A stretch of DNA of 64,000 nucleotides from Promethearchaeota archaeon (GTDB lineage: Archaea; Asgardarchaeota; Lokiarchaeia; Sigyniarchaeales; SOKP01), in assembly GCA_019058445.1 (NCBI GenBank), contig JAHPZA010000004.1, positions 1 through 64,000 on the forward strand. The letters are read 5' to 3'. Position numbers and translations under genes: made by a program. Of this stretch, positions 28,069 through 45,838 are shown piece after piece. Each line of letters begins with the position of its first letter. Position 1 is the stretch's first letter. Below the pieces are notes generated by a model. The model was not told the DNA's origin. It made no database searches and saw only the letters and a program-made list of their open reading frames with translations.

Positions 28069-29505
28069 GTGAAAAAGTGCAAAAAAATGCTTAGACAAGT
28101 TTGTGTGATTAAAAAGGATGATATACTTTATGAAAGATTATACGCTAATGCATTAAAAAAAGGGGAAATCGAAGATCTTCGCTTCAAGATCAAGAAAGAT
28201 GCCATTAAAGAAAAGGAAAATATACTTGGGTTTTTTGATTATTACAAATACCGCGTTTCGTACATCGTTGATCTTGAATTAGATATCATCTACATCTTTA
28301 TAACAGGATTGATGGATGATTATTTTAGTTTGATTAAACCTGAAATGGATAGTTTTAAGAATGAATTCTTTGAGCTTTTCGAAACAGAGCTCAATAAGGA
28401 TCAATTGAGTCCAGAAAAAATTGAAATTCTAAATAGCTATATCGATTCGATGCATAAAAATATTAAACCAAAAATTGCTGTAGTTGGATACTCTGGAGTC
28501 GGAAAGACTACAACCAAAAATTTGATTAGAATGGATGAAATACCTTCTCATCATATTCCAACAATTTCGGGAGATGTAGCTATGGCTAAGATCGGAGAAT
28601 TAGAATTTCAAATTTTTGATTTCGCAGGTCAAGAACAATTTAGCTATTTATGGAAAGGTTTTATAAAAGGAAGCAATGCAGTACTAGTAGTTACAGATTC
28701 TACTCCCCTAAATGTAGAAAAAAGCAGATTCTTTATTGATTTGAGAAATGATGAGGCTCCCTATGCCCGCATTGCTATTTTAGGGAACAAACAAGATCTT
28801 GAAAATGCCATGGACGTTGAAAGTATTGAAAATATCTTAGGGATTAAAACATATCCAATGATAGCAAATGAACCTGAGAATCGAGAAAAAATGATCCAGA
28901 TTATTGCTAATATTTTAGACATGAATATCGAAACATCTCCATTATTAGAGGGTTTAGTTAAAGAGGATAAATTTACATCAGAACCAGTAAAAGAAATGAT
29001 TAAAGGAGTGAGTTTAGATGAGAGGAAAGACTATATCAGAGAGATAAATATAGATCAAAAATTATCTAATGAAGTATCTGATGATATAAAGGGTGTAAAA
29101 GTTGAAAATATTTTGAGAAATCATCTTAAAATGATAAATTATACAGTCAAATCAATAAATAATAATGAGGAATTAACGTTCGAAGAGTTTTACAACTACT
29201 TTCAAGATTATACGAGAAATGCACTTGCATGTAGAAATATTGCGCTAAAACAATTTTTAGAAACACAATTCTCCCGCCTGCAAAAATCGATTGAAGAAGA
29301 TGAATTTATCGCCACAAAATTGAAAGATGATGTAGATGCCATAATTAATGCTCTCCTTTGTGCATATCTTACAAAATCTAATCCTCAAAAATATCCGATC
29401 TTTGAAAATATATTAAAAGATTTTACATTTAAAGGATTTGACGCACAGACCATAAAAGATATTCACGCTTATTACTTAAGAGTTATTAATAAATTTGGAG
29501 TCTAA
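28069..29505 (+). CDS. Ras/Arf-like small GTPase with N-terminal longin-like and C-terminal helical parts
   Basis: The central GTPase (about 133-285) has G1 GYSGVGKT, switch I threonine in HIPTISGD, G3 DFAGQEQF, and G4 GNKQD. The DFAGQ glutamine is kept, so hydrolysis is expected. G5 is not clear. The N-terminal 115 residues have the strand-helix pattern of a longin or roadblock-like domain (QVCVIKKDDILYERLYANA; YYKYRVSYIVDLELDIIYIF; then a long amphipathic helix). The C-terminal 190 residues are helical and unrecognised. The fusion suggests a membrane-trafficking-type switch carrying its own adaptor. The start is GTG at 28069, or possibly ATG at 28087. There is no lipidation motif. Confidence 0.8.
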   Translation: MKKCKKMLRQVCVIKKDDILYERLYANALKKGEIEDLRFKIKKDAIKEKENILGFFDYYKYRVSYIVDLELDIIYIFITGLMDDYFSLIKPEMDSFKNEFFELFETELNKDQLSPEKIEILNSYIDSMHKNIKPKIAVVGYSGVGKTTTKNLIRMDEIPSHHIPTISGDVAMAKIGELEFQIFDFAGQEQFSYLWKGFIKGSNAVLVVTDSTPLNVEKSRFFIDLRNDEAPYARIAILGNKQDLENAMDVESIENILGIKTYPMIANEPENREKMIQIIANILDMNIETSPLLEGLVKEDKFTSEPVKEMIKGVSLDERKDYIREINIDQKLSNEVSDDIKGVKVENILRNHLKMINYTVKSINNNEELTFEEFYNYFQDYTRNALACRNIALKQFLETQFSRLQKSIEEDEFIATKLKDDVDAIINALLCAYLTKSNPQKYPIFENILKDFTFKGFDAQTIKDIHAYYLRVINKFGV

Positions 29506-31167: not shown

Positions 31168-31701
31168 ATGATAACAGGAAGCAAAAATGTTAATATCCAA
31201 ATTATTTGTCCAATATGTAAATCCAAAAAACAGTTAAATATCCCGGAATCAATCATTAATCAAGCAAAGCAATTAACTACAATTTCTATTCAAAAAGGGA
31301 TGTTATGTAATCATCATTTCCAAGCATTTATAGATAAAAACTTTAAAGTTCGTGGTTATCAAAAGATAGATTTTGAAGTGAGCCCTATGAAAAGAGGAGA
31401 TAAAAGCTTTAAAATGGAAAAAATAGGCCGCGCAAAAAATCCCGACAATGAATTATTTGAGAATCTTATTATGGAAGGGAATTATATTGAGTATAAAGCA
31501 AATGCGCTAAATTCCAATGAACTAAAAGTTATTTCTAAAAAAAATGGAACATATAAGAGAAATAAGGACTTGACACTTAAGGAAATATATGAACTCTTTT
31601 GGGATTTTATCGATGAAGATAACAGAGAATTTAGGGAATTAATCATTAAAGATAAAAGAAGGAAGACCTTAAAAAATGCTCTTAAACCTATAGAGCATTG
31701 A
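31168..31701 (+). CDS. Zinc-binding Asgard-type protein, unknown
   Basis: The 177-residue soluble protein begins with a strand leading into CPICKSKKQLNIPESII, then TTISIQKGMLCNHHFQAFI and KNFKVRGYQKIDFEV. Two cysteines plus C-x-H-H could form one zinc site. I associate this N-terminal module with uncharacterised Asgard proteins. The second half is lysine-rich and helical. The gene lies 161 bases upstream of the ABC operon in the same direction, separated by nested palindromes, so it is probably a separate unit. Confidence 0.5.
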   Translation: MITGSKNVNIQIICPICKSKKQLNIPESIINQAKQLTTISIQKGMLCNHHFQAFIDKNFKVRGYQKIDFEVSPMKRGDKSFKMEKIGRAKNPDNELFENLIMEGNYIEYKANALNSNELKVISKKNGTYKRNKDLTLKEIYELFWDFIDEDNREFRELIIKDKRRKTLKNALKPIEH

Positions 31702-31862: not shown

Positions 31863-33011
31863 ATGTATTTAAGTGGATTAGTAAAGAAAGAGTTTGGCAG
31901 GATACAATCAGATAAACGGACATTAGTGTTAATTTTTGTCATTCCTATTATCTTGATTGTGATCTTTGGGCTTACTTCAGGAGGGGGTCCTACTGCATAT
32001 TTTGATACCGCAATCATAACCCGAGATAAAGAACCGTGCGATTGTTATAATTCTACGGATGGTTATGATGATATTTTTATAGACATTGTAGAGGATGATT
32101 GCGAAGCATGGGGTCTCTTTGAAGATTTTGAAAGCGAAGATGATGATGATTTTGATAAAATTTTTGATAAATGTGTCGAATTATTGAGAGATGAAATTAT
32201 TGATGTTTTTATAATATTACCTGATGATTTTTCGGAAACAATTACAAATGATACTAACACAGAAATCATTTATTATATTGATGGTTCCGATCAACAGGCA
32301 AAGGATGCGGTTGAAGTAGCATTGCAAGAACCAATAGGTAAATTTAGATTAGAAATAGATAAAACTACCAATTTTACTACAATGTCTCCCTATTTAGAAT
32401 ATGAAGTACCTTTCTGGGAATCTCAGGTGTTAAATTATGCATTTGCCTTGATTGCATCAATGCTTATCTTAGGATTATTAATGAATCTCACATCCTTGTC
32501 AATTGTTTCAGAAAAACCACTTCCTCGTATGTTGTTAACTCCAACAGCAAAGGACGAGATTATTTTAAGTAAATTAATTGCCAATACAATTATCATGATT
32601 CTACAAGTAACTGAAATTTTCGTAATGTCGGCCATTTTTGGATTATATTGTCTTGGTTCCCTCTTTGAACTTTATTTGGTATTATTAATGACAGGTTTTT
32701 GTGGAATATGTATGGGTTTATTTATTTCAGCAATTTCTAAAACTGAACAAGTTGCTAATCAACTCTATATGATGTTCTTTATAACTGTTATTATGTTTTC
32801 GGGCGCATTCATCAAAATTGATGCCTTGCCACTCGCAATGCAGATCATTATCAATTCACTTCCGTTAAGCCATGCTATCCCTCTTATTGTGAACATTACA
32901 ATGAAAGGACTTCCAATTGATTACGCTCACCTAGGAAGTTTAGCTTTAATATCAACAACCTTTGCCGGTATGGCTTATATCGCATTTAGATTAAAGAAAG
33001 TAGAGGTGTAA
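31863..33011 (+). CDS. ABC-2 type permease, first subunit
   Basis: The 382-residue ABC-2 permease has one membrane helix at the N-terminus (residues 22-42), a large extracytoplasmic loop of about 150 residues, and five helices at the C-terminal end (LNYAFALIASMLILGLL onward). The loop is strongly acidic and carries several cysteines (CDCYNS, DDCEAW and a later KCVE), unlike its partner, so it may be disulfide-bonded or bind cations. It heads a six-gene co-directional operon. ABC-2 permeases export lipids, polysaccharides, drugs or peptides. Confidence 0.85.
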   Translation: MYLSGLVKKEFGRIQSDKRTLVLIFVIPIILIVIFGLTSGGGPTAYFDTAIITRDKEPCDCYNSTDGYDDIFIDIVEDDCEAWGLFEDFESEDDDDFDKIFDKCVELLRDEIIDVFIILPDDFSETITNDTNTEIIYYIDGSDQQAKDAVEVALQEPIGKFRLEIDKTTNFTTMSPYLEYEVPFWESQVLNYAFALIASMLILGLLMNLTSLSIVSEKPLPRMLLTPTAKDEIILSKLIANTIIMILQVTEIFVMSAIFGLYCLGSLFELYLVLLMTGFCGICMGLFISAISKTEQVANQLYMMFFITVIMFSGAFIKIDALPLAMQIIINSLPLSHAIPLIVNITMKGLPIDYAHLGSLALISTTFAGMAYIAFRLKKVEV

Positions 33012-33018
33012 ATAGAGA

Positions 33019-34248
33019 TTGGCAAAATCTAAGACATCCGACAATTGGAGCAGTGGAACTTTTTTTAACAGGCTAAGATATAGTTTATGGAGAATTGTAC
33101 GACAGGTAAAAAAGGAATTCCAGCTCTTGAAAATAGATAAGATGAATTTAGTAATTGCGCTATTGATGCCTCCAGGAATAATTATGCTCTTTGCTTTTAT
33201 GTCCACTAGTGCTTCAGTCACCATACCTGTAAAAGTTAGTGTAGTTAGTTATGATTCCAATACCTTTGTAAATCAAAATAACTACTCGATAACAACAAAA
33301 TGGGATAATTATACCGAAATGTATCTGGATGCGGTAAAAGAATCAGAATTACTAGAACTAATTGAATTTTATGACGCAAGTGAAGATGAAAACGAATATG
33401 CTATGGAAACAGCACGAAATGAGATGCGAGATGGGAATATTGAATGCATCATCGTCATTCCCGTCGAATTTTCGGAGTTATTAACGACTGGCTATCCGGG
33501 GATCATAGAACTTATCCCGGATGCTTCTGATGCCGCTTCAATCCAAGATAAACTTAATGCTGTTCAAGATTCGATTAAAATCTTTGTAGAAGAAAATGAT
33601 CTTGATCCCGAATACGTGCTACAAGAATACGAGGAATTCTCAGTTCCATCCAAGTATAATTTTAGATACAACTATAATATGACCGTCTTATTACCGTTTA
33701 TGACTTTTGGAATTTCCTTTGTGTTAACTATATTAGTAGTCGTCCAGGAAAAACCTATCGCAAGACTTTTACTCACGCCAGTACAAAAAGCTGAGATTTT
33801 ACTTTCAAAATATATTGTTTATTCCATCGTATTAGCACTGCAAGTTTTTTTAGTCCTCACGGTTGCGATAGCTAACGGACTTTATGTTGCTGGAAATGTT
33901 ATTGATTTATTTCTCGGTCTATATATGTTAGGGTTTGCTGGAGTGAGTTTAGGGATGTTTGTCAGTACCGTAAGTAATACTAAAACCGAGGCAAATCAAC
34001 TCTTTTTTGCTCTTTTTATTGTTATTATATTATTAAGCGGTATGTTTGTTCCTATAGATGCAATGCCCGATTATTTACAAAATATTGCATATATTCTTCC
34101 ATTATCTCATGGAGCTCCGATTATCAAAGGAATTCTCTCTAAAGGTAAATCTTTTATTGGATTTGACTTTTTTTGGCTACTTGGTATAAGCTCAGTGCTC
34201 ATTATTCTATCATTCTTGGTAATTAATAGAAAACGATATGAGGTGTAA
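33019..34248 (+). CDS. ABC-2 type permease, second subunit
   Basis: The 409-residue partner permease has the same plan: a cytoplasmic N-terminus of about 45 residues, helix 1 (MNLVIALLMPPGIIMLFAF), an extracytoplasmic loop of about 160 residues and five C-terminal helices. It starts at TTG with GAGGTG ten bases upstream; that site overlaps the stop of the first permease. The two permeases share the core ILLSKYIVYSIVLALQVF-type segment and probably form a heterodimer, served by the ATPases downstream. Confidence 0.85.
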   Translation: MAKSKTSDNWSSGTFFNRLRYSLWRIVRQVKKEFQLLKIDKMNLVIALLMPPGIIMLFAFMSTSASVTIPVKVSVVSYDSNTFVNQNNYSITTKWDNYTEMYLDAVKESELLELIEFYDASEDENEYAMETARNEMRDGNIECIIVIPVEFSELLTTGYPGIIELIPDASDAASIQDKLNAVQDSIKIFVEENDLDPEYVLQEYEEFSVPSKYNFRYNYNMTVLLPFMTFGISFVLTILVVVQEKPIARLLLTPVQKAEILLSKYIVYSIVLALQVFLVLTVAIANGLYVAGNVIDLFLGLYMLGFAGVSLGMFVSTVSNTKTEANQLFFALFIVIILLSGMFVPIDAMPDYLQNIAYILPLSHGAPIIKGILSKGKSFIGFDFFWLLGISSVLIILSFLVINRKRYEV

Positions 34249-34249
34249 C

Positions 34250-35290
34250 TTGATAAGTACTACAGATGTAAAAGAAATCGTTGTTAATGTAGAAAATTTA
34301 GAAGTAAGTTTCGGAGAAAAAAAAATCATACATAAAGTTTCTTTTAATGTAAACCGAGGTGAGATCATCGGATTTTTTGGAATCTCAGGAGCGGGAAAAA
34401 CTACAATAATTCGCGTTTTAACATGTCAGATAAGTCAAAAAAATTGGACGGGATATGTAAAGGTTACGAATCTTAACCCAGGAAGTAAAAAAAATCACGC
34501 AAAAATACTGAGTAATATCGGATATGTCCCACAATTAGAAGAACTCAATCTCTATTATGACTTAACTCCTCTTAAAAATGTGGAGATATTTGCTTCTTGT
34601 TATAACATGAAAAAAAAAGAAGCTTTAGCTATCGCGAAAGAATTATTTTCAATTTTAGATATCCCAGAAGACACTTGGAATAAACCTTTAAAAAAAATGA
34701 GTGGAGGAGAAAAAAAGAGAGTTTCTATGGCTATTGGCTTAATCCACAAGCCGGACATTCTTTTTTTAGACGAACCTACCACAGGAGTTGATGCTGCTAA
34801 GCGCTATGATGTGCTTTCATATTTAAAAAAGCTTAACCGTAGATTAGGTACCACGATGTTCTTAATAACGCATGATATGGAAGCAGCCTTGATTGTAGAT
34901 CGAGCCGCCATTTTAAGAGACGGAAAACTTCTAGAATTTGACTCTAATTCTAATTTGATTACATCATTGCCAAGTAAAGGTTTAGTAGCGCGATTTTCAA
35001 TAGAAAATTTAAATGAGGAAAAAATAAACATTATCAAACAATTTCCAAATGTTAGTAATATTAAAACTATACGAGTTGGCAATGAGACGTTTGAAGTACT
35101 TATGGACGATTTTGAAAAAAACCTCTCAAAATTAATACAGTTCATGATGGAGAAAGGTTTAAAACTCAATGCAATGAGCCGGGATGTTGCTGCGTTTAGG
35201 AGATACTTTCAACTTAGAATTCAAGAAGAAGAAGAGAAAGAGCGCCGGATAAGAATGCAACAAGAAACAAGTGAAGAGGTGCAGTTTTAA
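34250..35290 (+). CDS. ABC transporter ATPase of the ABC-2 operon
   Basis: The protein has Walker A GISGAGKT, Q-loop GYVPQLEELNLYYDLT, signature MSGGEKKRVSMAIGL, Walker B ILFLDEPTTGVD and H-loop ITHDME, so it should be active. The C-terminal 110 residues (after VARFSIENLNEEKINI) form the regulatory domain common in drug- and lipid-exporting ABCB/DrrA-type ATPases, ending in a long charged helix (EEEEKERRIRMQQ). I place the start at TTG 34250, five bases after GAGGTG; an ATG at 34238 lies inside the previous gene. Its stop overlaps the presumed ACG start of the next gene. Confidence 0.88.
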   Translation: MISTTDVKEIVVNVENLEVSFGEKKIIHKVSFNVNRGEIIGFFGISGAGKTTIIRVLTCQISQKNWTGYVKVTNLNPGSKKNHAKILSNIGYVPQLEELNLYYDLTPLKNVEIFASCYNMKKKEALAIAKELFSILDIPEDTWNKPLKKMSGGEKKRVSMAIGLIHKPDILFLDEPTTGVDAAKRYDVLSYLKKLNRRLGTTMFLITHDMEAALIVDRAAILRDGKLLEFDSNSNLITSLPSKGLVARFSIENLNEEKINIIKQFPNVSNIKTIRVGNETFEVLMDDFEKNLSKLIQFMMEKGLKLNAMSRDVAAFRRYFQLRIQEEEEKERRIRMQQETSEEVQF

Positions 35291-38200
35291 CGGAATCCAA
35301 AACTAAGCGCAAAATTAGAGTATTATTAACATTTATAGCTTTTTTCGGTGCCCAATTACTTCTAATTGGGCTTATTAATTACCCATGGATAACCTATTAC
35401 GATGAAAATGAAGTAAAAGATCTTAAAGATAATATGGTGGATTTTGTAAATAGCCATCAAAATCCAGATTCTGATCTTTTTATTGAGCCCACAATAGAGT
35501 CAACCTATAGGGCAATTGATTCACTTAATTTTTCCCATCCTGTTAGTTCCTCTACAAATATAATAAATCCTAGATATAACGACCATCTAAGTGATGATAT
35601 GAGAGATTTCTTTTTTTATTACTTATTTGAGAAACAAAATGATAATGGGTCCTTTTCAGATATTTATGGATTAGGAAACATGTACTCTACGTATCAAGTC
35701 GTTGAAACTATTTACAAATTAGATAGCTCTTTTATGATTTTACGAGATGAAGAATATGAATTTAATAAGATTAGTATGCTTCTTCAGTACTTGGGTAATT
35801 CCTTGGCAGAGAATGGGTACGGATTTAAGTTAAATGAATACTCTCCTATACCTGATATACTGTCAACTTATTGCGCTATAATTTTAGCAAATCGATTCAA
35901 TGCAGAGTCTCTTCTTAAAAATAAAAACATTACTAGGTATGTGAATTCCTCTATTATTGACATTTCGCCAGAATTGACATATTATAGGATCTTGTCTCAT
36001 TTAGAATTAGGGTTGACAATTAACATAACGCAAAAAATAGCTATTCTAGTTTATTTTGCAAGTCTCTATAATAGCCAAGATGGGGGTTTTTCTATAATTG
36101 CTGGAGGTGAGTCAGATGTCCAATCAACCTATTTTGCAATTTCCTCGTTAAATGCAATAAATAGGACGGTCTCTAACCAAAACAAATCACGATATTTCAT
36201 ATTGAATTGTTCAAGTTCAGATGGAGGTTTTGGGTATAGGCCAGACACTGTGAATGCAACGTATAACTCAGATTTTAAATCGGGATGGGCAGCCATGAAA
36301 GCTATTGACATTCTTGAAAAAAATGCCACTGTGAATAACCTCAATAATAATCTATATCGTAAGAATTATTATAATTGGTTATATGCGCATCAAGCAGAGA
36401 ATGGGTTGTTTGGGGAGATTTCACTGCAAGCAAATTATTGGGGTGTATTATCAAATTTTCAAGCTGATCCCGAAAATTTAGCTGATAAGGTGGATATAGA
36501 TGATATCTGGGATTATGTTGAAGACTGTTATGATAGTAGTGAAGGAGGGTTCGGATATAAAGCTGATGAGGAAGCAAGCTTATTTTCGACTTATAGTGCT
36601 CTTAATATTTATGAAATGTTCTATAATTATGATGAATTCGAGGGTGAGCTACCTAATACCAATAAAACTATAGAATATTTAGTTGATAGGCAAAATCAAG
36701 ATGGGGGATTTAATTTAGGTCTTGATTTATATCAAATTACTGCCTTTTTTGGACCATTAAGTGATATTTTTTTAAGTTTATTAAAAACTAATGTTTCTAC
36801 AGTAGAAAGTACATATTGGGCTCTCTCCTCCTTAGATATTTTAGGTGCAATAGATAAAGTATATGAGAAAGATTTAATGCATTGGATGTACTCCTGTCAG
36901 AACGCTGATGGGGGTTTTTCTATAATTTTAGGATTTCACAGTGATACTATATCAACCTATTTTGGATTAGCAGTTTTTAATTTATTAAATACTAAACCGA
37001 TATCCGAAATAGGGCCTATTGAGTTTTTAAAGAATGCTCAAAATGACGAGGGAAGTTTCGATCCTATGCCAGCTCTTTCATTAATATTTGATCTTCCCAC
37101 ATCATTTTTATTAACATATTTCGCAGCCATGGGACTTTACGAATTTGAATATCAACCTGAAGATGTGGAAGAATTAATTGATTGGTATGAAGATTGTTAT
37201 AGTTCAAATACAGGTGGAATGGGAGATAATCCGGGATTCGGAGGTGACTTACGAAATACTCCTTATGGGATAATCCTTATAGAAGAACTTCAATATGATC
37301 AAGCTTTTAACCCTAGACCTTGGACAGAATTAATCACAGTGATAATTTTGACAGAAATTCTACTACTTTTGTTATATGGAATTATAAACGCCATTATGAT
37401 TTTAGATGTAACGATTTCAAAAAAGATAAAGACGAAATTAGGGATTGGGGAAAAGTTTAATATCTCCTATTTAAAAAAGTCGGCTGCGATTTATTGTGAA
37501 AATTTAAATATATTTGCAGGAGGAAAATTAATTGTAGATTCTGTTTCAATGAGATTAGAACATAGTGAAATTTTAGGAGTATTAGGAGAAAGTGGAGCGG
37601 GTAAGTCGACTTTTGTAAAAGCTTTGCTAGGAATGCGTAAGTTCACTGGAATTAATCAAGTGTATGGCATGGATGTAAAAAAGTACTCAAAAAAAATGAG
37701 ACCTATCTATGGATATGTCCCCCAACAACTAATGCTGTATAATAATTTTACTGTTTTACAAAATATTTTCTACTTTGGGAAGAGATATGATTTATCTGAA
37801 AAAGAAATCATAAGTAGGACTAAAAGATTACTAAGATCGTTGGAAATTGAAGACAAAATGTATGAAAAAGTTAAGAACCTTTCAGGAGGGCAGAAACGAC
37901 GAGTAAGCATAGCATTGGCATTAATTCATAATCCTGTTATTCTTTGGATGGATGAGCCGACATCAGGCTTAGATCCTGTGGTACGAGAAAATCTCTGGAT
38001 TGCATTAACCAAAATAAATGAGCAATTTAATACTACATTAATTGTAATTACACATTATCCCGAAGAATCACGTTTCTGTCATCGTGTTGCGATATTTGGG
38101 AGGCAAAAAGGTATGATAGACTATGGGCGTCCAAGGGATTTGCTTACCCAATTACCCGGGCGTGGTCGGAAAATCGAATTATATTTCAATGAGATAAAAG

Positions 38201-38421
38201 AGGAGGCTATTAAGAGATTAGAATCTATTGATGGTGTAGAAACTGTATTAGAGAGGAAAGCAGGGACTGATTTCTTATTGTTTACTGATTTGGACTTGAA
38301 CTCTCTCTTTGAAAAAATTAAACAAGAGTTTCCAAAGTCAATTCCGCAGATGATTCAATCAGATTGTCAAATGGAAGATTTATTCAGAATTTTAGCGTTA
38401 AAGGTGCCTGTAATTGAATAA
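35290..38421 (+). CDS. Membrane-anchored prenyltransferase-like toroid fused to an ABC ATPase
   Basis: Roughly 1043 residues if started at ACG 35290 (TAACG overlaps the previous stop, GAGGTG lies eight bases upstream). The frame is open from there and encodes a membrane helix (RVLLTFIAFFGAQLLLIG) that a start at the first ATG, 35434, would lose. About ten repeats follow with the pattern QNxDGGF then STYxAL (for example SQDGGFSIIAGGESDVQSTY), as in the alpha/alpha toroid of squalene cyclases and prenyltransferases; no DxDD catalytic motif is seen. A second helix (about 678-706) leads to a cytoplasmic ATPase with GESGAGKS, LSGGQKRRVSIAL, WMDEPTSGLD and ITHYPEE. The toroid should face outside. 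Confidence 0.8.
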   Translation, partial: TESKTKRKIRVLLTFIAFFGAQLLLIGLINYPWITYYDENEVKDLKDNMVDFVNSHQNPDSDLFIEPTIESTYRAIDSLNFSHPVSSSTNIINPRYNDHLSDDMRDFFFYYLFEKQNDNGSFSDIYGLGNMYSTYQVVETIYKLDSSFMILRDEEYEFNKISMLLQYLGNSLAENGYGFKLNEYSPIPDILSTYCAIILANRFNAESLLKNKNITRYVNSSIIDISPELTYYRILSHLELGLTINITQKIAILVYFASLYNSQDGGFSIIAGGESDVQSTYFAISSLNAINRTVSNQNKSRYFILNCSSSDGGFGYRPDTVNATYNSDFKSGWAAMKAIDILEKNATVNNLNNNLYRKNYYNWLYAHQAENGLFGEISLQANYWGVLSNFQADPENLADKVDIDDIWDYVEDCYDSSEGGFGYKADEEASLFSTYSALNIYEMFYNYDEFEGELPNTNKTIEYLVDRQNQDGGFNLGLDLYQITAFFGPLSDIFLSLLKTNVSTVESTYWALSSLDILGAIDKVYEKDLMHWMYSCQNADGGFSIILGFHSDTISTYFGLAVFNLLNTKPISEIGPIEFLKNAQNDEGSFDPMPALSLIFDLPTSFLLTYFAAMGLYEFEYQPEDVEELIDWYEDCYSSNTGGMGDNPGFGGDLRNTPYGIILIEELQYDQAFNPRPWTELITVIILTEILLLLLYGIINAIMILDVTISKKIKTKLGIGEKFNISYLKKSAAIYCENLNIFAGGKLIVDSVSMRLEHSEILGVLGESGAGKSTFVKALLGMRKFTGINQVYGMDVKKYSKKMRPIYGYVPQQLMLYNNFTVLQNIFYFGKRYDLSEKEIISRTKRLLRSLEIEDKMYEKVKNLSGGQKRRVSIALALIHNPVILWMDEPTSGLDPVVRENLWIALTKINEQFNTTLIVITHYPEESRFCHRVAIFGRQKGMIDYGRPRDLLTQLPGRGRKIELYFNEIKEEAIKRLESIDGVETVLERKAGTDFLLFTDLDLNSLFEKIKQEFPKSIPQMIQSDCQMEDLFRILALKVPVIE

Positions 38422-40273
38422 ACCTGCATTAAATAAACTTTTTAGAGAAGAAGATGTAAGAGATATCGAATTATCTCTCCTTAAATCTAAGATAAGCAAA
38501 GCAATTAGATTTTCTGAACGATATTGGATGATTTATAAGCAAAAAACATTTGGAATAGCTACAATTATTGATTTAAGTTATAAAAAATCTTATATTGAGG
38601 TATTATTCTCACCTACGATAGATAAAACACAAACTCAAACCTCATTGGTGCAAATCTTTACTCCTGGTAAGACTACATTTAACTTTAATGAGATTCTTAT
38701 CGAACCAGATACTGATGAGGATGGGCTTGTAAGCCCCCAAAAAATAATTCAAAGACTAAATAGATTAATTAAAAAGGAAGTAAATTACCATCTTACCATT
38801 TTAAATTATGAGCTTGAATTATTAAATGAACAATTTGAAAATTATCCAATAGAAGGGAATCCGTACTTTAGAAAAATTATTGTATATTTTCCAAATTATG
38901 TCGTGGAATTAAGAATTAATATAGAAAATTATCCTGAAGTCCCAAGTTTATCTGAAAAAGATCAATTAACTATTAGAAGATTTATTGAACCAATAGCAGA
39001 AAAAATAAGGGTAAAATTATTAGAAAGGTATGGAATATCCGCATTTGAAAGATATGGAGAAGAAGTTCATATTTATGATGATAAATTAGAGATTTTTATA
39101 GAAAAATCTAAAATGCCATTTATAGTGAAATTTAAAAGAGGATTTGAGAAAAGAGTTAGAGAACTATTTAAATTAAAACCTAAAGATGTAATTGAAGATT
39201 ATAAAGACTTAAAATATATTATAAAAGAAAGGGATTTTAACAAAATAGAGCTGATTAAAAACTGGAAAGTTGAGAATGCGCCCCATATTGTCGAGTTAAT
39301 TGAATCAATTTTGGAGATAATGAAAAATTCTCAACATCTTATCCTTAAAAATGTATCACTATTGGATAAAATTCATAATATATCATTTAAAGTTCATAGA
39401 GGACAATCAATTGGCATTTATTATAAGTTAAAAGAACCAAACCATATATTAGCTGAAAATCCTATCATTGAATTATTTCATACAATTGAGGGTAGAAGTG
39501 CCGATTATTCAGGAGAAATTTCTGTTTTTGGTACTAAATACATCCCCAATGGCTATAATAAGAGTGAAGGGATATTGATTACAACCGGTGAAATAGATTC
39601 GAAAATACGAAATATGAAAATTAAAAAAGCAATTCTTTACAATTTATATCTCATAGGAAAGAGAAAAAGCAAAAAAACGTTAATAAACAAGGCACTGGAG
39701 ATAACTGGATTATTATATAGAAAAAACGAAAAAGTGGCTAATTTAACTATATTAGAACAAATTTTATTCTCAATTTCTAGAGCTCTTTTAAGAAGGCAGA
39801 GTATTATAATGGTTTCCATCCCTCTTAGTGAAATAGGACCCTTAGAAAGTGAACAATTTAATCGTTATGTAGAAAACATTAAGCAAGAATTTCATGTTGT
39901 TCTAATAATTCACGGTCCAAAAAGTATTGTTTCAAATTGCGACAAGATTATTACAGTTAAAGATAAACAGGCAGAAATAGGTACAATTAAGCATTATATT
40001 TCAAAAATACCTCAAGCTGGGGAAATTATTACAATTGAATTAGACAAGCCTGATGAAGTTGCTCTTGAAAATATGCTTAAAATTCAAACTGGTATATTTA
40101 TTGAAGAAAGAAAAAATGAAAGATATAAGATATATTGTATAGATGAGAACCCTAATAAAATACTTGTTAAATTATTCGAAACTATTGGAGATCATATGTA
40201 CAATTTTAAAAGACATAAGGCGTCATTAGAAGAATATTTAGAATTTATGGAAATTAAAGAAAAAATGGGATAA
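38414..40273 (+). CDS. Degenerate ABC-ATPase-like protein with a large N-terminal region
   Basis: The 619-residue protein starts at TTG 38414, overlapping the previous stop, with AAGGTG eight bases upstream. Residues from about 310 follow an ABC ATPase (LILKNVSLLDKIHNISFKV, then GQSIGIYY), but Walker A is replaced by YYKLKEPNHILAENP, the signature by LTILEQILFSISRALL and Walker B by IIMVSIPLSEIGPLES, so it cannot bind or hydrolyse ATP normally. The C-terminus keeps the DUF4162-like strand-helix end. Residues 20-300 contain alternating strands and helices, with FPNYVVELRINIENYPEVPS recalling RWD/E2-like folds; that is a weak inference. It is likely a structural subunit of the transporter. Confidence 0.6.
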   Translation: MNKPALNKLFREEDVRDIELSLLKSKISKAIRFSERYWMIYKQKTFGIATIIDLSYKKSYIEVLFSPTIDKTQTQTSLVQIFTPGKTTFNFNEILIEPDTDEDGLVSPQKIIQRLNRLIKKEVNYHLTILNYELELLNEQFENYPIEGNPYFRKIIVYFPNYVVELRINIENYPEVPSLSEKDQLTIRRFIEPIAEKIRVKLLERYGISAFERYGEEVHIYDDKLEIFIEKSKMPFIVKFKRGFEKRVRELFKLKPKDVIEDYKDLKYIIKERDFNKIELIKNWKVENAPHIVELIESILEIMKNSQHLILKNVSLLDKIHNISFKVHRGQSIGIYYKLKEPNHILAENPIIELFHTIEGRSADYSGEISVFGTKYIPNGYNKSEGILITTGEIDSKIRNMKIKKAILYNLYLIGKRKSKKTLINKALEITGLLYRKNEKVANLTILEQILFSISRALLRRQSIIMVSIPLSEIGPLESEQFNRYVENIKQEFHVVLIIHGPKSIVSNCDKIITVKDKQAEIGTIKHYISKIPQAGEIITIELDKPDEVALENMLKIQTGIFIEERKNERYKIYCIDENPNKILVKLFETIGDHMYNFKRHKASLEEYLEFMEIKEKMG

Positions 40274-40312
40274 AATTAATAATCAGAGAAAATAATTAAA
40301 AAAGGTGTTACA

Positions 40313-41125
40313 ATGATAAAAAGACTGTATATTATGAGATATAATGGAACTCTCTTATATTCAAAACATCTTACTGAGGGAGAACGTTTTGATGATAATA
40401 TTTTAATTGGATTTTTTGCTTCATTAGCAAATTTTAGTAGAGAAGCACTAGAAAGTGAAATTCAATATATTGATCTCGGGCATGATAATAAATTAGTGTT
40501 GTTTCCTCATGCAAGTGAAAAATTACTCGCCACAGCTATCGTAAGTTCTATTGATGATAATGAACTTATCATGAAAATTTTGAGAGATATTTTGCAAGAC
40601 TTCATTGGAGCTTTTGCACCAGATTATAATCCAGATGAAATTAATGAAGAAGAGATGGAAAGCATCATTGAATTAAATGTGAGCGGAAAGATAAGTTATC
40701 CATTAATTAAAAGACTTATATTTTCATGGCTTTTGTTAATTCCGCTCTGCATTTTTTTAAATTTCTTAAACATTACTTCGGGAGATTATATCTTTCAAAA
40801 TTTATATCTTGATAAAGATATTTACACACAAGAGGAGATTTATACTGTGGTATTGCCTACAATGATCCGGATTTCTCTAATTGTTTTATTAATTGTATTT
40901 ATATTACCTAATCTAATTTCTGGCTATTTAGTGTTAGATGCAAAGTTTGCCTATTTAAATTCGGTAATATATATTGTCTTAATCATGGTTATATACTTCT
41001 TTACAATAGAATCTCTATTCGCCTATGTTATTCTCGCCTATCTACCGTTGGTTTTCTTAATCTCAATTGGCTTTGCTTACATAGGATTTCGATATGCTAA
41101 AAAGAGAAAAATTATTAGAAATTAG
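40313..41125 (+). CDS. Longin-like domain with four membrane helices
   Basis: Residues 1-110 look like a longin/roadblock-type fold: the strand pair LYIMRYNGTLLYSKHL, a long helix around GFFASLANFSREALESEI, the strand NKLVLFPHASEKLLATAIV, and a final amphipathic helix. An acidic linker follows, then four membrane helices (about 135-260). The protein is a membrane-tethered longin, a form that in eukaryotes is found in SNARE-like and trafficking adaptor proteins. It is the last gene of the ABC operon, 39 bases after the degenerate ABC gene, with its own AAGGTG site and an ATG start. Confidence 0.6.
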   Translation: MIKRLYIMRYNGTLLYSKHLTEGERFDDNILIGFFASLANFSREALESEIQYIDLGHDNKLVLFPHASEKLLATAIVSSIDDNELIMKILRDILQDFIGAFAPDYNPDEINEEEMESIIELNVSGKISYPLIKRLIFSWLLLIPLCIFLNFLNITSGDYIFQNLYLDKDIYTQEEIYTVVLPTMIRISLIVLLIVFILPNLISGYLVLDAKFAYLNSVIYIVLIMVIYFFTIESLFAYVILAYLPLVFLISIGFAYIGFRYAKKRKIIRN

Positions 41126-42943: not shown

Positions 42944-44437
42944 TTGATTAAAATTTCATACAAATTACCAGATGAAAAAGATTTAGAGGCCATGATTGGC
43001 ATTGTAGGTAAAAAGTATGCCAGCAATAACAAGGCAATCACTGCTTCTTACCTCGCAAAGTCAGTCATGGGGCTGGAAAGCCAAATTCCAGACATCGTAA
43101 TCCGACCGAAATACGTAGAAGAGATTCGTAAAATCTTAATATATTGCTCTGCTGAGAAAATACCTGTTAGTCCTGTTTCGGCAGGATTATCCGGTGGATT
43201 TGCTTGCCCTACTATTAGACCTGGTGGTGTGCTCCTCGATTTGGGGAGAATGGATCGTATCATCGAAATTGACGAAGAAAATCGATATGCTATTATAGAA
43301 CCGGGTGTAACCAATGGTACGCTTTGGGCTTACATGCATAAGAATCATCCTGATTGGGCACCTCCAATTGCTGATGGCGCCCCTCCGGCTGCTACTGTAA
43401 TGGGAGATGCTATAGATAGAGGTTTTTCCTTATATACTTCTAGTGTAGGACCTCAAGGGGATAACTTTATGTGTGGGGAAGTTGTTTTTCCAAATGGTGA
43501 TGTCGTAAGAACAGGATCTTGGGCGCTTCCATTTGCAAAACCATTCTATAAGTATGGGCTTGGTCCAGACATGTGGTCATACCTTATGGGTAGTCAAGGA
43601 ACTATGGGAGTAATAACCAAGGCAGCTGTCAAAATATATCCTCATCCTAAATACAAAACTGTTATAGTATGGGGTATGTCTAATCCTTATGATATGCAAG
43701 ATTTAACACTAGAAGTAGGAAAACAAGAATTTGGGGTTTCTAACCATACCGTTATGGTCCAAGGAGGCAATTATCCACTCGTTATGGCACGCTGGCCAAA
43801 AGATAAAATTCCTCATAATTATGAATTTTTTAAAGAAATAGGTGTAGCAAAGTGGTGGATGAACTGGGAAACATGGGCTCAGACGCAAGAAGAATTGGAT
43901 TATTGTATTAAGAGAATCAACTCTATAGCAAAAGATTTCAAACAAAATCGTGCTAAAGACCCTGATGCTATAAAACCCCAGGAGCTTCATCCTAAACAAA
44001 TCGCAAGCAGAATGAAGAAACCTAATAAGATTGCTATTCCATATTCATTCTGGGAAGCTGGGTTCTTATTCATAACATGGTACACTCCGTGGAACGAATG
44101 TGCCGAATTCGCAGAAATGTACAACGCAGAAATGGAAAAGAGAGGTTTCCCTCCTGTGATGTGGATTGCCAGCATTGAGCGTTGCAGACAAGCAATCTGT
44201 ATGCCAATAATCTGTTTTGACAGTACTAAGGATGAGGATTTTGAAAAGGTCCAAGATTTGAATGCGGTGACTACTGAATATGGTCTAAAAAGAGGATGGC
44301 TTAACTATAGACCAGATCCATACATCCACATACAAGCTTACTATCAAGCAGGTATGTACTGGAAGTATTTACGGGCCTTTAAGAAAATGGTCGATCCTAA
44401 TATGATAATGCATCCCGGCAGATTAGCTCTGCCGTAA
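42944..44437 (+). CDS. FAD-linked oxidase (GlcD/VAO-PCMH type), cluster 1
   Basis: The 497-residue flavoenzyme has a PCMH-type FAD domain: RPKYVEEIRKILIYCSAEKI, then PVSAGLSGGFACPTIRPGGV for FAD pyrophosphate, and GDNFMCGEVVFPNGDVVRTG. A GSQGTMGVITKAAVKIYP segment joins to the substrate cap, and the C-terminal KKMVDPNMIMHPGRLALP closes the FAD fold. Members oxidise 2-hydroxyacids such as D-lactate or glycolate. The start is TTG at 42944. The iron-sulfur gene begins 18 bases later, so the pair is a two-subunit dehydrogenase. The exact substrate is unknown. Confidence 0.85.
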   Translation: MIKISYKLPDEKDLEAMIGIVGKKYASNNKAITASYLAKSVMGLESQIPDIVIRPKYVEEIRKILIYCSAEKIPVSPVSAGLSGGFACPTIRPGGVLLDLGRMDRIIEIDEENRYAIIEPGVTNGTLWAYMHKNHPDWAPPIADGAPPAATVMGDAIDRGFSLYTSSVGPQGDNFMCGEVVFPNGDVVRTGSWALPFAKPFYKYGLGPDMWSYLMGSQGTMGVITKAAVKIYPHPKYKTVIVWGMSNPYDMQDLTLEVGKQEFGVSNHTVMVQGGNYPLVMARWPKDKIPHNYEFFKEIGVAKWWMNWETWAQTQEELDYCIKRINSIAKDFKQNRAKDPDAIKPQELHPKQIASRMKKPNKIAIPYSFWEAGFLFITWYTPWNECAEFAEMYNAEMEKRGFPPVMWIASIERCRQAICMPIICFDSTKDEDFEKVQDLNAVTTEYGLKRGWLNYRPDPYIHIQAYYQAGMYWKYLRAFKKMVDPNMIMHPGRLALP

Positions 44438-44455
44438 ACAAGGAGGTTGAAAAAA

Positions 44456-45838
44456 ATGGCTAAAACAGGAATGGATAGATTACAAGAATTAAAAAAGGAC
44501 ATTTTCAAATGTATTCACTGTAAAGCTTGCAGGTTCGCTTATTCAGGAGAACCAGATAGGGAAGGGATTGGCGAATTTACGGGTAAACAGGGAACAGTTC
44601 TTTATGAAGGAATGGTTGATGCTTGTCCAGCAGGTATAGAATATGGATGGGAAGCGTTTTGGAATGCGGGAAAGATTTGGATTGCTCGATCAATCCTTAA
44701 TGGTGATTTAGAATTTACCGAAGAAGTCAGAGATGTATTGATGCCTTGTATTACTTGCGGACAATGTTCTGCACAATGTGAAAATAAAGTTCGAACAGTC
44801 GATATTATAGAATCCTTACGAGCAGCATGTAAGGAAGCTGGTGTCCCTATGATTGACAAACATCAATTAGTTGATAGATTGGTCAAGGAATTAAACAATC
44901 CGTATGGAGGTAAGGCAGATGAACGATTTAAATGGGCTAAAGACGCAGGCTTAGAAAAATACATTGACAATAAAGATGCGAAAATTGGGTATTATGTGGG
45001 GTGTACTGCGAGCTATCGTCAAGTTGAAGTGGCAATTGCTACTGCAAAAGTATTCGAACAATTAGGGATGAATTTTACCTTGATTTCTGACGAAGTTTGT
45101 TGCGGCAGCCCATTTTTCAGAGTCGGTGCTGTGGATACTGCTCAAGAATTAATGAATAAAAACCTTGAGGCCTTTAAAGGTTTAGAGAAGCTTTACTTCT
45201 CTTGTGCAGGATGTTATCGTACTATAACAATTGATTATCCAAAATGGATGCCCGAAGACCAAAAGCTTCCTTTCAAAACTCAGCATGCTTTTGAATTAAT
45301 TTCTAAATTAATTACAATAGGAAAAGTAAGTTTCAAACCAAATAAAGAATTAAAAGGCAAGGTGGTTACCTATCATGATCCATGTCACACAGGTAGACAC
45401 TTTGCGGTTGACATGGAACAGGAGATGATCAGAGAATCGAAGAATTTAATGTTTGATATGCGCAAAATAAAAGAGAGGCAAGAAGCATGGTTTGATGTTC
45501 CAAGAGTAATCCTAAGGAAATTAGAGGAAGATGTTGGGATAAAATTCACAGAGATGTACCGTATTAAGCTCAATAGCATGTGCTGTGGAGCAGGTGGCGG
45601 AGTCAGAGCAGGATACCCCGACTTTAGTTTGAGAACTGCGAGTTTACGATGTGATGAAGCAAATGCGGTTGGTGCGGATATTTTAACTACAGAATGTCCG
45701 TTCTGCTGGAGAAACTTGTCCGATGCAAACGATCTTTACACGCATGGCTTACAGGTAATGGGCATTCTTGAAATGATAAGTAAGTACAATCTCTTAGACC
45801 TAAAGGAAAAACCAACTCAAAAAGAACTTTTAGAATAA
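44456..45838 (+). CDS. CCG-type iron-sulfur subunit (GlcF/HdrD-like), cluster 1
   Basis: The 460-residue protein has two [4Fe-4S] motifs near the N-terminus (CIHCKACRF with DACPAG; CITCGQCSAQCENK) and two CCG domains (YYVGCTASYR, EVCCGSPF, FSCAGCYR; YHDPCHTGRH, MCCGAGGGVRAG, ECPFCW). CCG domains bind noncubane clusters in heterodisulfide reductase HdrB/HdrD and related glycolate and lactate oxidases. It should receive electrons from the FAD subunit. I chose the ATG at 44456, nine bases after AGGAGG, over the TTG at 44447. A hairpin terminator follows. Confidence 0.88.
   Translation: MAKTGMDRLQELKKDIFKCIHCKACRFAYSGEPDREGIGEFTGKQGTVLYEGMVDACPAGIEYGWEAFWNAGKIWIARSILNGDLEFTEEVRDVLMPCITCGQCSAQCENKVRTVDIIESLRAACKEAGVPMIDKHQLVDRLVKELNNPYGGKADERFKWAKDAGLEKYIDNKDAKIGYYVGCTASYRQVEVAIATAKVFEQLGMNFTLISDEVCCGSPFFRVGAVDTAQELMNKNLEAFKGLEKLYFSCAGCYRTITIDYPKWMPEDQKLPFKTQHAFELISKLITIGKVSFKPNKELKGKVVTYHDPCHTGRHFAVDMEQEMIRESKNLMFDMRKIKERQEAWFDVPRVILRKLEEDVGIKFTEMYRIKLNSMCCGAGGGVRAGYPDFSLRTASLRCDEANAVGADILTTECPFCWRNLSDANDLYTHGLQVMGILEMISKYNLLDLKEKPTQKELLE

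Follow-up and report, generated by a model that had tools for sequence, protein, structure and literature searches.

A toroid fused to an ABC motor within a co-inherited six-gene ABC-2 set of Asgard archaea

What kind of machine is encoded by six tightly packed genes that combine ATP-binding cassette (ABC) permeases and motors with a toroid, a degenerate ABC protein and a longin-like membrane protein? The locus in question lies at positions 31863-41125 on the + strand of a stretch of 64,000 nucleotides (nt) from contig JAHPZA010000004.1 of a Promethearchaeota archaeon (the window, in whose positions all coordinates are given). The source genome, of 4.6 Mb, is that of an Asgard archaeon, and Asgard archaea are the closest living relatives of eukaryotes. 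The genes are named here perm1, perm2, ATPa, TORO, PSEU and LONG. All six open reading frames are found in tandem at the place and on the strand given by a first-pass annotation made from the sequence alone, and Pfam matches and motifs confirm its reading of five of them as two permeases, an active ATPase, a toroid-ABC protein and a degenerate ABC protein (Table 1). The same annotation described overlaps or tiny gaps between the genes, which holds, at 40 nt or less, for every junction except that between ATPa and TORO as listed: the listed ATG of TORO leaves a gap of 143 nt there, and this gap vanishes once the frame is extended back to its opening at 35275. Judged by the sequences of its permeases and motors, the set is an ABC-2 exporter; it is neither an ABCA or ABCH protein, its parts being separate chains, nor a type VII system. 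That the six products form one complex is quite likely on the comparative data presented below. No description of the toroid-ABC fusion or of this gene set was found in the literature searched, with subscription journals mostly outside its reach. The claim that no described transporter has this set thus stands within the libraries and literature searched, with the restriction that the set has an ordinary ABC-2 exporter at its core, one that descends from an Asgard-wide two-ATPase system.

The genes proved to be strictly co-inherited. With strict thresholds for the presence of TORO, PSEU and LONG, applied to 228 genomes, TORO was detected in 47, of which 45 also carried PSEU and 42 LONG, and no genome had PSEU or LONG without TORO. 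In some of the TORO genomes that fall short of PSEU or LONG (e.g. G082 and G158) the locus lies at a contig end. The co-occurrence with TORO has Fisher p-values of ~1e-45 for PSEU and ~1e-40 for LONG, not corrected for shared ancestry. Within the source family (f1), 41 of the 65 genomes carry TORO, and the other 24, some of them rated 100% complete, are without TORO, PSEU and LONG alike. The joint absence of the three genes from many relatives speaks for a functional unit. Moreover, 23 further loci, from more than one family, share the gene order of the window, perm1-perm2-ATPa-TORO-PSEU-LONG, while one locus (G081) has an altered gene order and a divergent PSEU. The suggestion that the five neighbours accompany the fusion in Asgard genomes is therefore borne out, and the joint inheritance and conserved order support the view that the six genes encode one machine. 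The alternative, that they are mere neighbours with unrelated jobs and a fusion that arose by chance, can point to the synteny that some flanking genes likewise show in the family, and no other support for it was found; it is contradicted by the p-values given above, by an order kept across families and by a patchy presence with joint absence, and we consider it hardly credible.

The fusion of toroid and ATPase is itself well documented, since the two form one open frame in more than 40 Asgard genomes and assemblies. An assembly error or a chance fusion is ruled out by this unbroken frame, which removes one of the reservations that had been attached to the first-pass annotation. The fusion occurs in most genomes of the source family. 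Elsewhere in the order it was found in G158 and G159 and, split into pieces, in G093, all from other families; within the class, three more families have it (G081, G082 and G084). The TORO protein of the nearest relative is 86% identical to that of the window, and the other aligned homologues are 35-60% identical. Asgard genomes beyond the class match TORO through the ATPase alone or through weak toroid similarity. An alignment scan of GTDB contigs with the whole of TORO was dominated by generic ABC matches and says little about fusions outside Asgard archaea. An 'ABC' frame of ~2600 residues in another Asgard genome proved to consist mostly of N. The toroid was also used as a query, which as a single-protein search is insensitive: 300 genomes of the phylum that contains the Bathyarchaeota gave only short matches to frames of about 300 residues, and 294 Planctomycetota and 301 Chloroflexota genomes gave no match, with no positive control. 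Within these limits of sensitivity, no toroid-ABC fusion was found outside the class in the genomes searched.

Where the toroid resides is suggested by the architecture of TORO. The start at ATG 35434 was rejected as too late, because the frame upstream of it encodes a conserved membrane helix: its first 50 codons specify a basic stretch and a hydrophobic helix, the latter conserved in 24 aligned homologues. The start is probably a non-ATG codon at about 35287-35292. About 15 of the 24 genomes have no ATG, GTG or TTG before the conserved N-terminal helix (among them those of the window and of L049, L050, L052, L054-L056, L060, L065, L068 and L070). In the window, the region 35275-35310 offers ACG or UUA; in relatives it often has AUA a few bases after a GGTGA/GGTGG motif, and this AUA aligns with UUG in L066. 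In most family members TORO thus appears to start at a non-canonical codon, possibly a conserved weak one. The AlphaFold model of TORO (mean predicted local distance difference test score, pLDDT, 86.8) comprises a helix at residues 9-34, about 26 helices over residues 44-672, a 43-residue helix at 680-722, the ATPase and then a ferredoxin-like domain. The second hydrophobic helix was found in 24 of 24 homologues, and basic residues stand before helix 1 and after helix 2. N-glycosylation sequons per 100 residues number 2.31 in the toroid and 3.14 in the permease outer domain, compared with 0.97 in the TORO ATPase, 0.87 in ATPa, 0.58 in PSEU and 0.12 in the rest of the permeases. It should be noted here that the TORO ATPase, too, has twice as many sequons as expected from shuffled sequences, so that the sequon argument is supportive only. 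Given the two flanking membrane helices, the basic flanks and the sequon density, the toroid most likely lies outside the cell, tethered at both ends. An extracellular toroid linked to the ATPase by a membrane helix had been anticipated; the location and the link are supported, and the single helix has to be replaced by two, the N-terminal one having escaped notice.

The toroid region comprises about 630 residues, and the number of its helices would suffice for a pair of alpha6/alpha6 toroids. Among solved sequences, those nearest to it are beta subunits of Rab geranylgeranyltransferase (RabGGTase), at 3e-18. The zinc ligands of protein prenyltransferase beta subunits are Asp-x-Cys and His. 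No conserved DxC, the zinc-ligand motif, was found across 24 toroids, and where the RabGGTase beta segment DPFHTLFG has its His, the toroid has an aligned Ser. The same 24 toroids lack the DxDD[TSC] motif, and GCGEQ, the thioester motif, is absent from 24 of 24. The toroid was therefore rejected as a prenyltransferase, a terpene cyclase or a TED enzyme. Because these enzyme motifs are missing, a role in binding or as a lever appears more likely than prenyl, terpene or thioester chemistry. This weakens the known enzymatic alternatives to the lipid- or polypeptide-binding toroid suggested in the first-pass annotation, and is no proof that lipids are bound. Fold searches with the full models of TORO and PSEU returned only ABC ATPases among the best 50 matches. 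Long toroid proteins were also observed in other Asgard families (L071 8080-15683, L072 and L074-L079), where a pair of them stands beside a Transglut_core membrane protein; one of the pair in L071 carries 7TM_transglut and ATPgrasp_ST domains.

Both motors appear competent and of distinct descent. The Walker A, signature (LSGGQ/E), Walker B and H-loop motifs are intact in 24 of 24 TORO and 19 of 19 ATPa sequences. In a maximum-likelihood tree of ATPases, which is weakly supported at its base, ATPa forms one clade on an 'a' lineage and TORO one clade on a 'b' side, as expected of a heterodimer. TORO falls in this tree together with b subunits from an ABC-2 system with two ATPases, which is spread over many Asgard groups (L032, L037-L047 and L083). 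The b subunit of this wider system carries a soluble N-terminal domain, TrmB-regulator-like in some cases and made of winged helices with E3_UFM1_ligase/PCI-like matches in L043, and the toroid would seem to have taken the place of such an accessory domain on an ancient motor. Structural searches with Foldseek gave TM_1403 (4yer), ABCA3/4/7 and NosF as the best matches of the ATPases. In NCBIfam the best models for ATPa and the TORO ATPase are DrrA and RbbA, all far below their curated cut-offs. Both permeases exceed the Pfam gathering cut-off for ABC2_membrane_3; their SagH and DrrB matches in NCBIfam are weak and below cut-off. A joint profile of perm1 and perm2 best matches 8z01 over the full length of the membrane domain (8e-28, profile positions 12-391, 380 positions), which, like 8yzp and 9ju6, we take to be an insect ABCH-type structure; the entries are named ABC transporter G family member 23-like. 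The permeases are not of the kind found in type VII (MacB/LolCDE/FtsEX) systems, the Pfam and PDB matches being of ABC-2 type.

The two remaining subunits are more remote from known families, and neither PSEU nor LONG has a Pfam match above cut-off as a single sequence. The alignment of the PSEU family has lost Walker A and the catalytic Asp-Glu of Walker B, yet its profile finds ABC ATPases at 4e-14 and the predicted model retains the ABC ATPase fold. PSEU has probably decayed from an ATPase, since its distant relative L034 has an ABC domain that can still be read (1.4e-6). Its long branch joins the 'b' side of the ATPase tree without reliable support. In the model of residues 1-215, two units each consist of a helix, three or four strands and a helix; the second contains an invariant YPxxP (P174 and P177), and one distant member matches RWD at 0.0075, below cut-off. 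Tandem RWD/UBC-like domains are the probable reading of this predicted N-terminus. LONG comprises an N-terminal domain (about 40313-40627) followed by about four membrane helices. Its family profile finds TRAPPC1/BET5 in the PDB (0.006 and 0.013), then AP-2 mu and VAMP7, down to about 0.1, and homologues match Fuz_longin_1, Longin, Intu_longin_1 and Sybindin, all below cut-off. All these best matches are longin-fold families, each weak alone and mutually consistent, so that the N-terminal domain is likely a longin, as had been proposed. A tie of LONG to small GTPases is plausible, given that related genomes encode fusions of this domain family to GTPase-like domains (L195 712-3333, L197 2-862 and 2454-5075); the 874-residue fusion also has a CN_hydrolase match, and an Arf match among the homologues (0.0057) is below cut-off.

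How might these parts work together? We propose a heteromeric ABCA/ABCH-like exporter that moves an amphipathic substrate, in which the tethered toroid would serve as acceptor or lever and PSEU and LONG as regulators, a reading to which the sequence comparisons give about an even chance. In it, perm1 and perm2 would form the membrane path, and ATPa and the TORO ATPase an asymmetric motor pair. Helix 1 and the long helix 2 of TORO would hold the toroid outside, tied to its own motor. PSEU, as a dead ABC protein with RWD-like adaptor domains, and LONG could act on the cytoplasmic side, regulating the complex or docking it. As substrate, a lipid, a glycolipid or a lipidated peptide might be drawn out of the membrane; the toroid would either take it up or, set in motion by the ATPase cycle, act on a partner at the surface. 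An amphipathic substrate is suggested because the permeases are nearest to ABCH and the ATPases to ABCA/NosF, and both insect ABCH proteins and human ABCA12 contribute to lipid barriers at surfaces (PMC6980720); by this analogy the substrate class is tentative, somewhat short of an even chance. Several points weigh against the exporter reading: ABC2_membrane_3 exporters also move drugs and peptides, so that only the nearest relatives speak for a lipid; an extracellular domain on a tether may instead stand for mechanical work with no transport; and the domain calls for LONG and the N-terminus of PSEU rest on weak profile scores. A more specific version is on the unlikely side: a single transmembrane helix would transmit the force of the motor directly to the extracellular toroid on the same chain, and the longin, the RWD-like adaptor and small GTPases would gate the exporter from the cytoplasm, which would amount to lipid handling under proto-trafficking control in the closest archaeal kin of eukaryotes.

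The best rival is a mechanotransmitter with little or no transport, in which ATP binding drives the tethered toroid to open, load or release a surface protein or polymer. The covalent joining of the toroid to its motor by one long helix in the model fits this idea, as does the place of NosF among the best structural matches of the ATPase, if one compares NosFY acting for NosD and MacB, LolCDE and YbbAP acting for periplasmic partners. A precedent is YbbAP-TesA, which shows that an ABC core can offer hydrophobic compounds to a partner outside the cytoplasm (PMC12646458). The permeases are nevertheless of the ABC2_membrane_3 exporter type and not of the MacB/FtsX type, and no gene for an extracellular partner is conserved beside the set in the locus comparison, so that we judge this rival rather unlikely. 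Export of a secreted peptide or natural product in the manner of drug exporters, with the toroid as a maturation factor or chaperone for the product, would agree with the sub-threshold DrrA, SagH and DrrB matches and with the frequency of drug exporters of this ABC2 class in Asgard proteomes (PMC7997004). It is improbable: the locus comparison revealed no conserved biosynthetic or precursor gene beside the set, the toroid lacks prenyltransferase, cyclase and thioester motifs, and DrrA-type matches are generic for this ATPase class. Import or retrieval, with the toroid catching an external ligand (e.g. a syntrophic partner's lipid or peptide) for the ABC core to bring in, accords with a toroid that is outside and tethered like a receptor. 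However, ABC2_membrane_3 relatives are exporters or outward floppases, and the comparison of loci showed no gene for a solute-binding protein beside the set, which makes uptake very improbable.

If the complex exists, the exporter proposed here would present a new link of ATP hydrolysis to extracellular work, with a motor and an extracellular domain on one membrane-crossing chain. It would likewise place a membrane longin of Asgard archaea among definite partners that are inherited with it; in these archaea most domains of trafficking type are without a known job.

ATPa revealed a further feature in relatives of the source organism. Seven related Lokiarchaeal genomes of five genera (L004/L052 in G107, L006/L054 in G154, L009/L056 in G103, L015/L061 in G131, L017 in G138, L024 in G137 and L028 in G117) carry inserts of 31-34 nt in ATPa, all at one point after Walker B (DEPTT|GVDA), while ATPa of the window has none. 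The inserts fold as archaeal introns of the bulge-helix-bulge (BHB) type, as predicted from their sequences, with an outer CC:GG, a 3-nt bulge ACA, a 4-bp central helix (variants UACC:GGUA, AACU:AGUU and GACU:AGUU), a 3-nt bulge and an inner hairpin. In the alignment 98% of cells pair, four pairs are changed on both sides, and the covariation score of 0.51 was not reached in 500 shuffles. The predicted splicing, within the bulges, would re-form the codons ACA GGN. Over 65 genomes, a covariance model yielded only these seven strong cases. Sequencing errors as the cause of the split frames are ruled out by the single site and length of the inserts, the BHB pairing and the compensatory changes. 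As of 2009, BHB introns in archaeal protein genes had been confirmed only for cbf5 (PMC2738675); a paper from 2020 refers to one mRNA case and contributes a further mRNA substrate (PMC7714728).

Table 1. Features of the six-gene set and its zinc-ribbon-like neighbour, in window positions.
Feature	Position	Strand	Evidence
perm1, ABC-2 permease with outer domain between transmembrane helices 1 and 2	31863..33011	+	Pfam ABC2_membrane_3 5.4e-29
perm2, ABC-2 permease, perm1 paralogue	33019..34248	+	Pfam ABC2_membrane_3 1.1e-28; shared family profile
ATPa, active ABC ATPase, 'a' lineage	34238..35290	+	Pfam ABC_tran 7.9e-25; intact motifs; tree
TORO, membrane helix-toroid-membrane helix-ABC fusion	35275..38421	+	Pfam Prenyltrans 3e-41 and ABC_tran 2e-25; single frame in >40 genomes
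TORO membrane helix 1, cytoplasm to outside (predicted)	35299..35376	+	model helix 9-34; basic N-terminal side
TORO alpha/alpha toroid region, most likely extracellular	35404..37290	+	PF00432 3e-41; sequons
TORO long helix 2, membrane, outside to cytoplasm (predicted), then basic stretch	37312..37440	+	model helix 680-722
TORO nucleotide-binding domain, active, 'b' lineage	37480..38154	+	motifs 24/24; tree; Foldseek 4yer, ABCA3/ABCA4, NosF
TORO C-terminal ferredoxin-like regulatory domain, ABCA/NosF-type	38167..38421	+	model residues 965-1042; 4yer alignment, 307 columns
PSEU, degenerate ABC protein	38414..40273	+	family profile; fold search; motif loss
PSEU N-terminal pair of putative RWD/UBC-like domains	38447..39052	+	model element order; YPxxP motif
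LONG, longin-like domain and about four C-terminal membrane helices	40313..41125	+	profile matches
Zinc-ribbon-like protein, neighbour of the set, not core	31168..31701	+	locus comparison

Genes around and within the set vary between loci. The zinc-ribbon-like gene stands beside the set in 15 of 27 loci, on either side, and is possibly associated with it without belonging to the core. Genes for a flavin adenine dinucleotide (FAD)-linked oxidase-like protein and an HdrD-like iron-sulphur protein (window 42944-45838, named from reading the sequence) are found next to the set in 15 loci of the family, which probably reflects general synteny. Upstream, at 28069-29505, the window encodes a 478-residue Arf/Ras-like GTPase with long N- and C-terminal extensions, in a neighbourhood that is not kept in other genomes. 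Some loci contain extra DNA of about 1.5-2.1 kb, either between perm2 and ATPa (L054 12280-13829, L055 12297-14281 and L061 4913-7041) or between TORO and PSEU (L056 7734-9376 and L065 4935-6955).

Among known systems, the set shares its toroid repeats with RabGGTase beta and other PF00432 toroids, but TORO lacks the conserved zinc motif, is about twice as long, is predicted to lie outside the cell and is fused to an ABC motor. The L071-type proteins also place a long extracellular PF00432 region on a membrane machine, whereas their membrane part is of the 7TM/ATP-grasp and not the ABC type, and their neighbour is a transglutaminase-like protein. Insect ABCH and ABCA proteins share with the set an ABC-2 membrane domain in which a large outer domain follows the first transmembrane helix, and an ABCA/DrrA-type ATPase with a C-terminal regulatory domain; they carry permease and ATPase on a single chain, while here the permeases are separate, there are two ATPases, one of them bearing the toroid, and PSEU and LONG are added. 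The prokaryotic ABC-2 exporters DrrAB, RbbA and SagGH, which provide the nearest, sub-threshold NCBIfam matches of the ATPases and permeases, are without a toroid, a pseudo-ATPase or a longin subunit. NosDFY likewise has a NosF-like ATPase fold and an ABC-2 core that serves an extracytoplasmic protein, but no fusion of motor and toroid, NosD being a separate periplasmic protein of another fold. A further counterpart is the Asgard two-ATPase ABC-2 system of ATPa, ATPb and permease, which has the same ATPase lineages and permease type, differs in that its b subunit bears a soluble domain instead of the toroid with its two membrane helices, and is without PSEU or LONG. An Asgard-wide ABC-2 system would thus appear to have swapped the accessory domain of one motor, which is soluble in most lineages and an extracellular toroid here.

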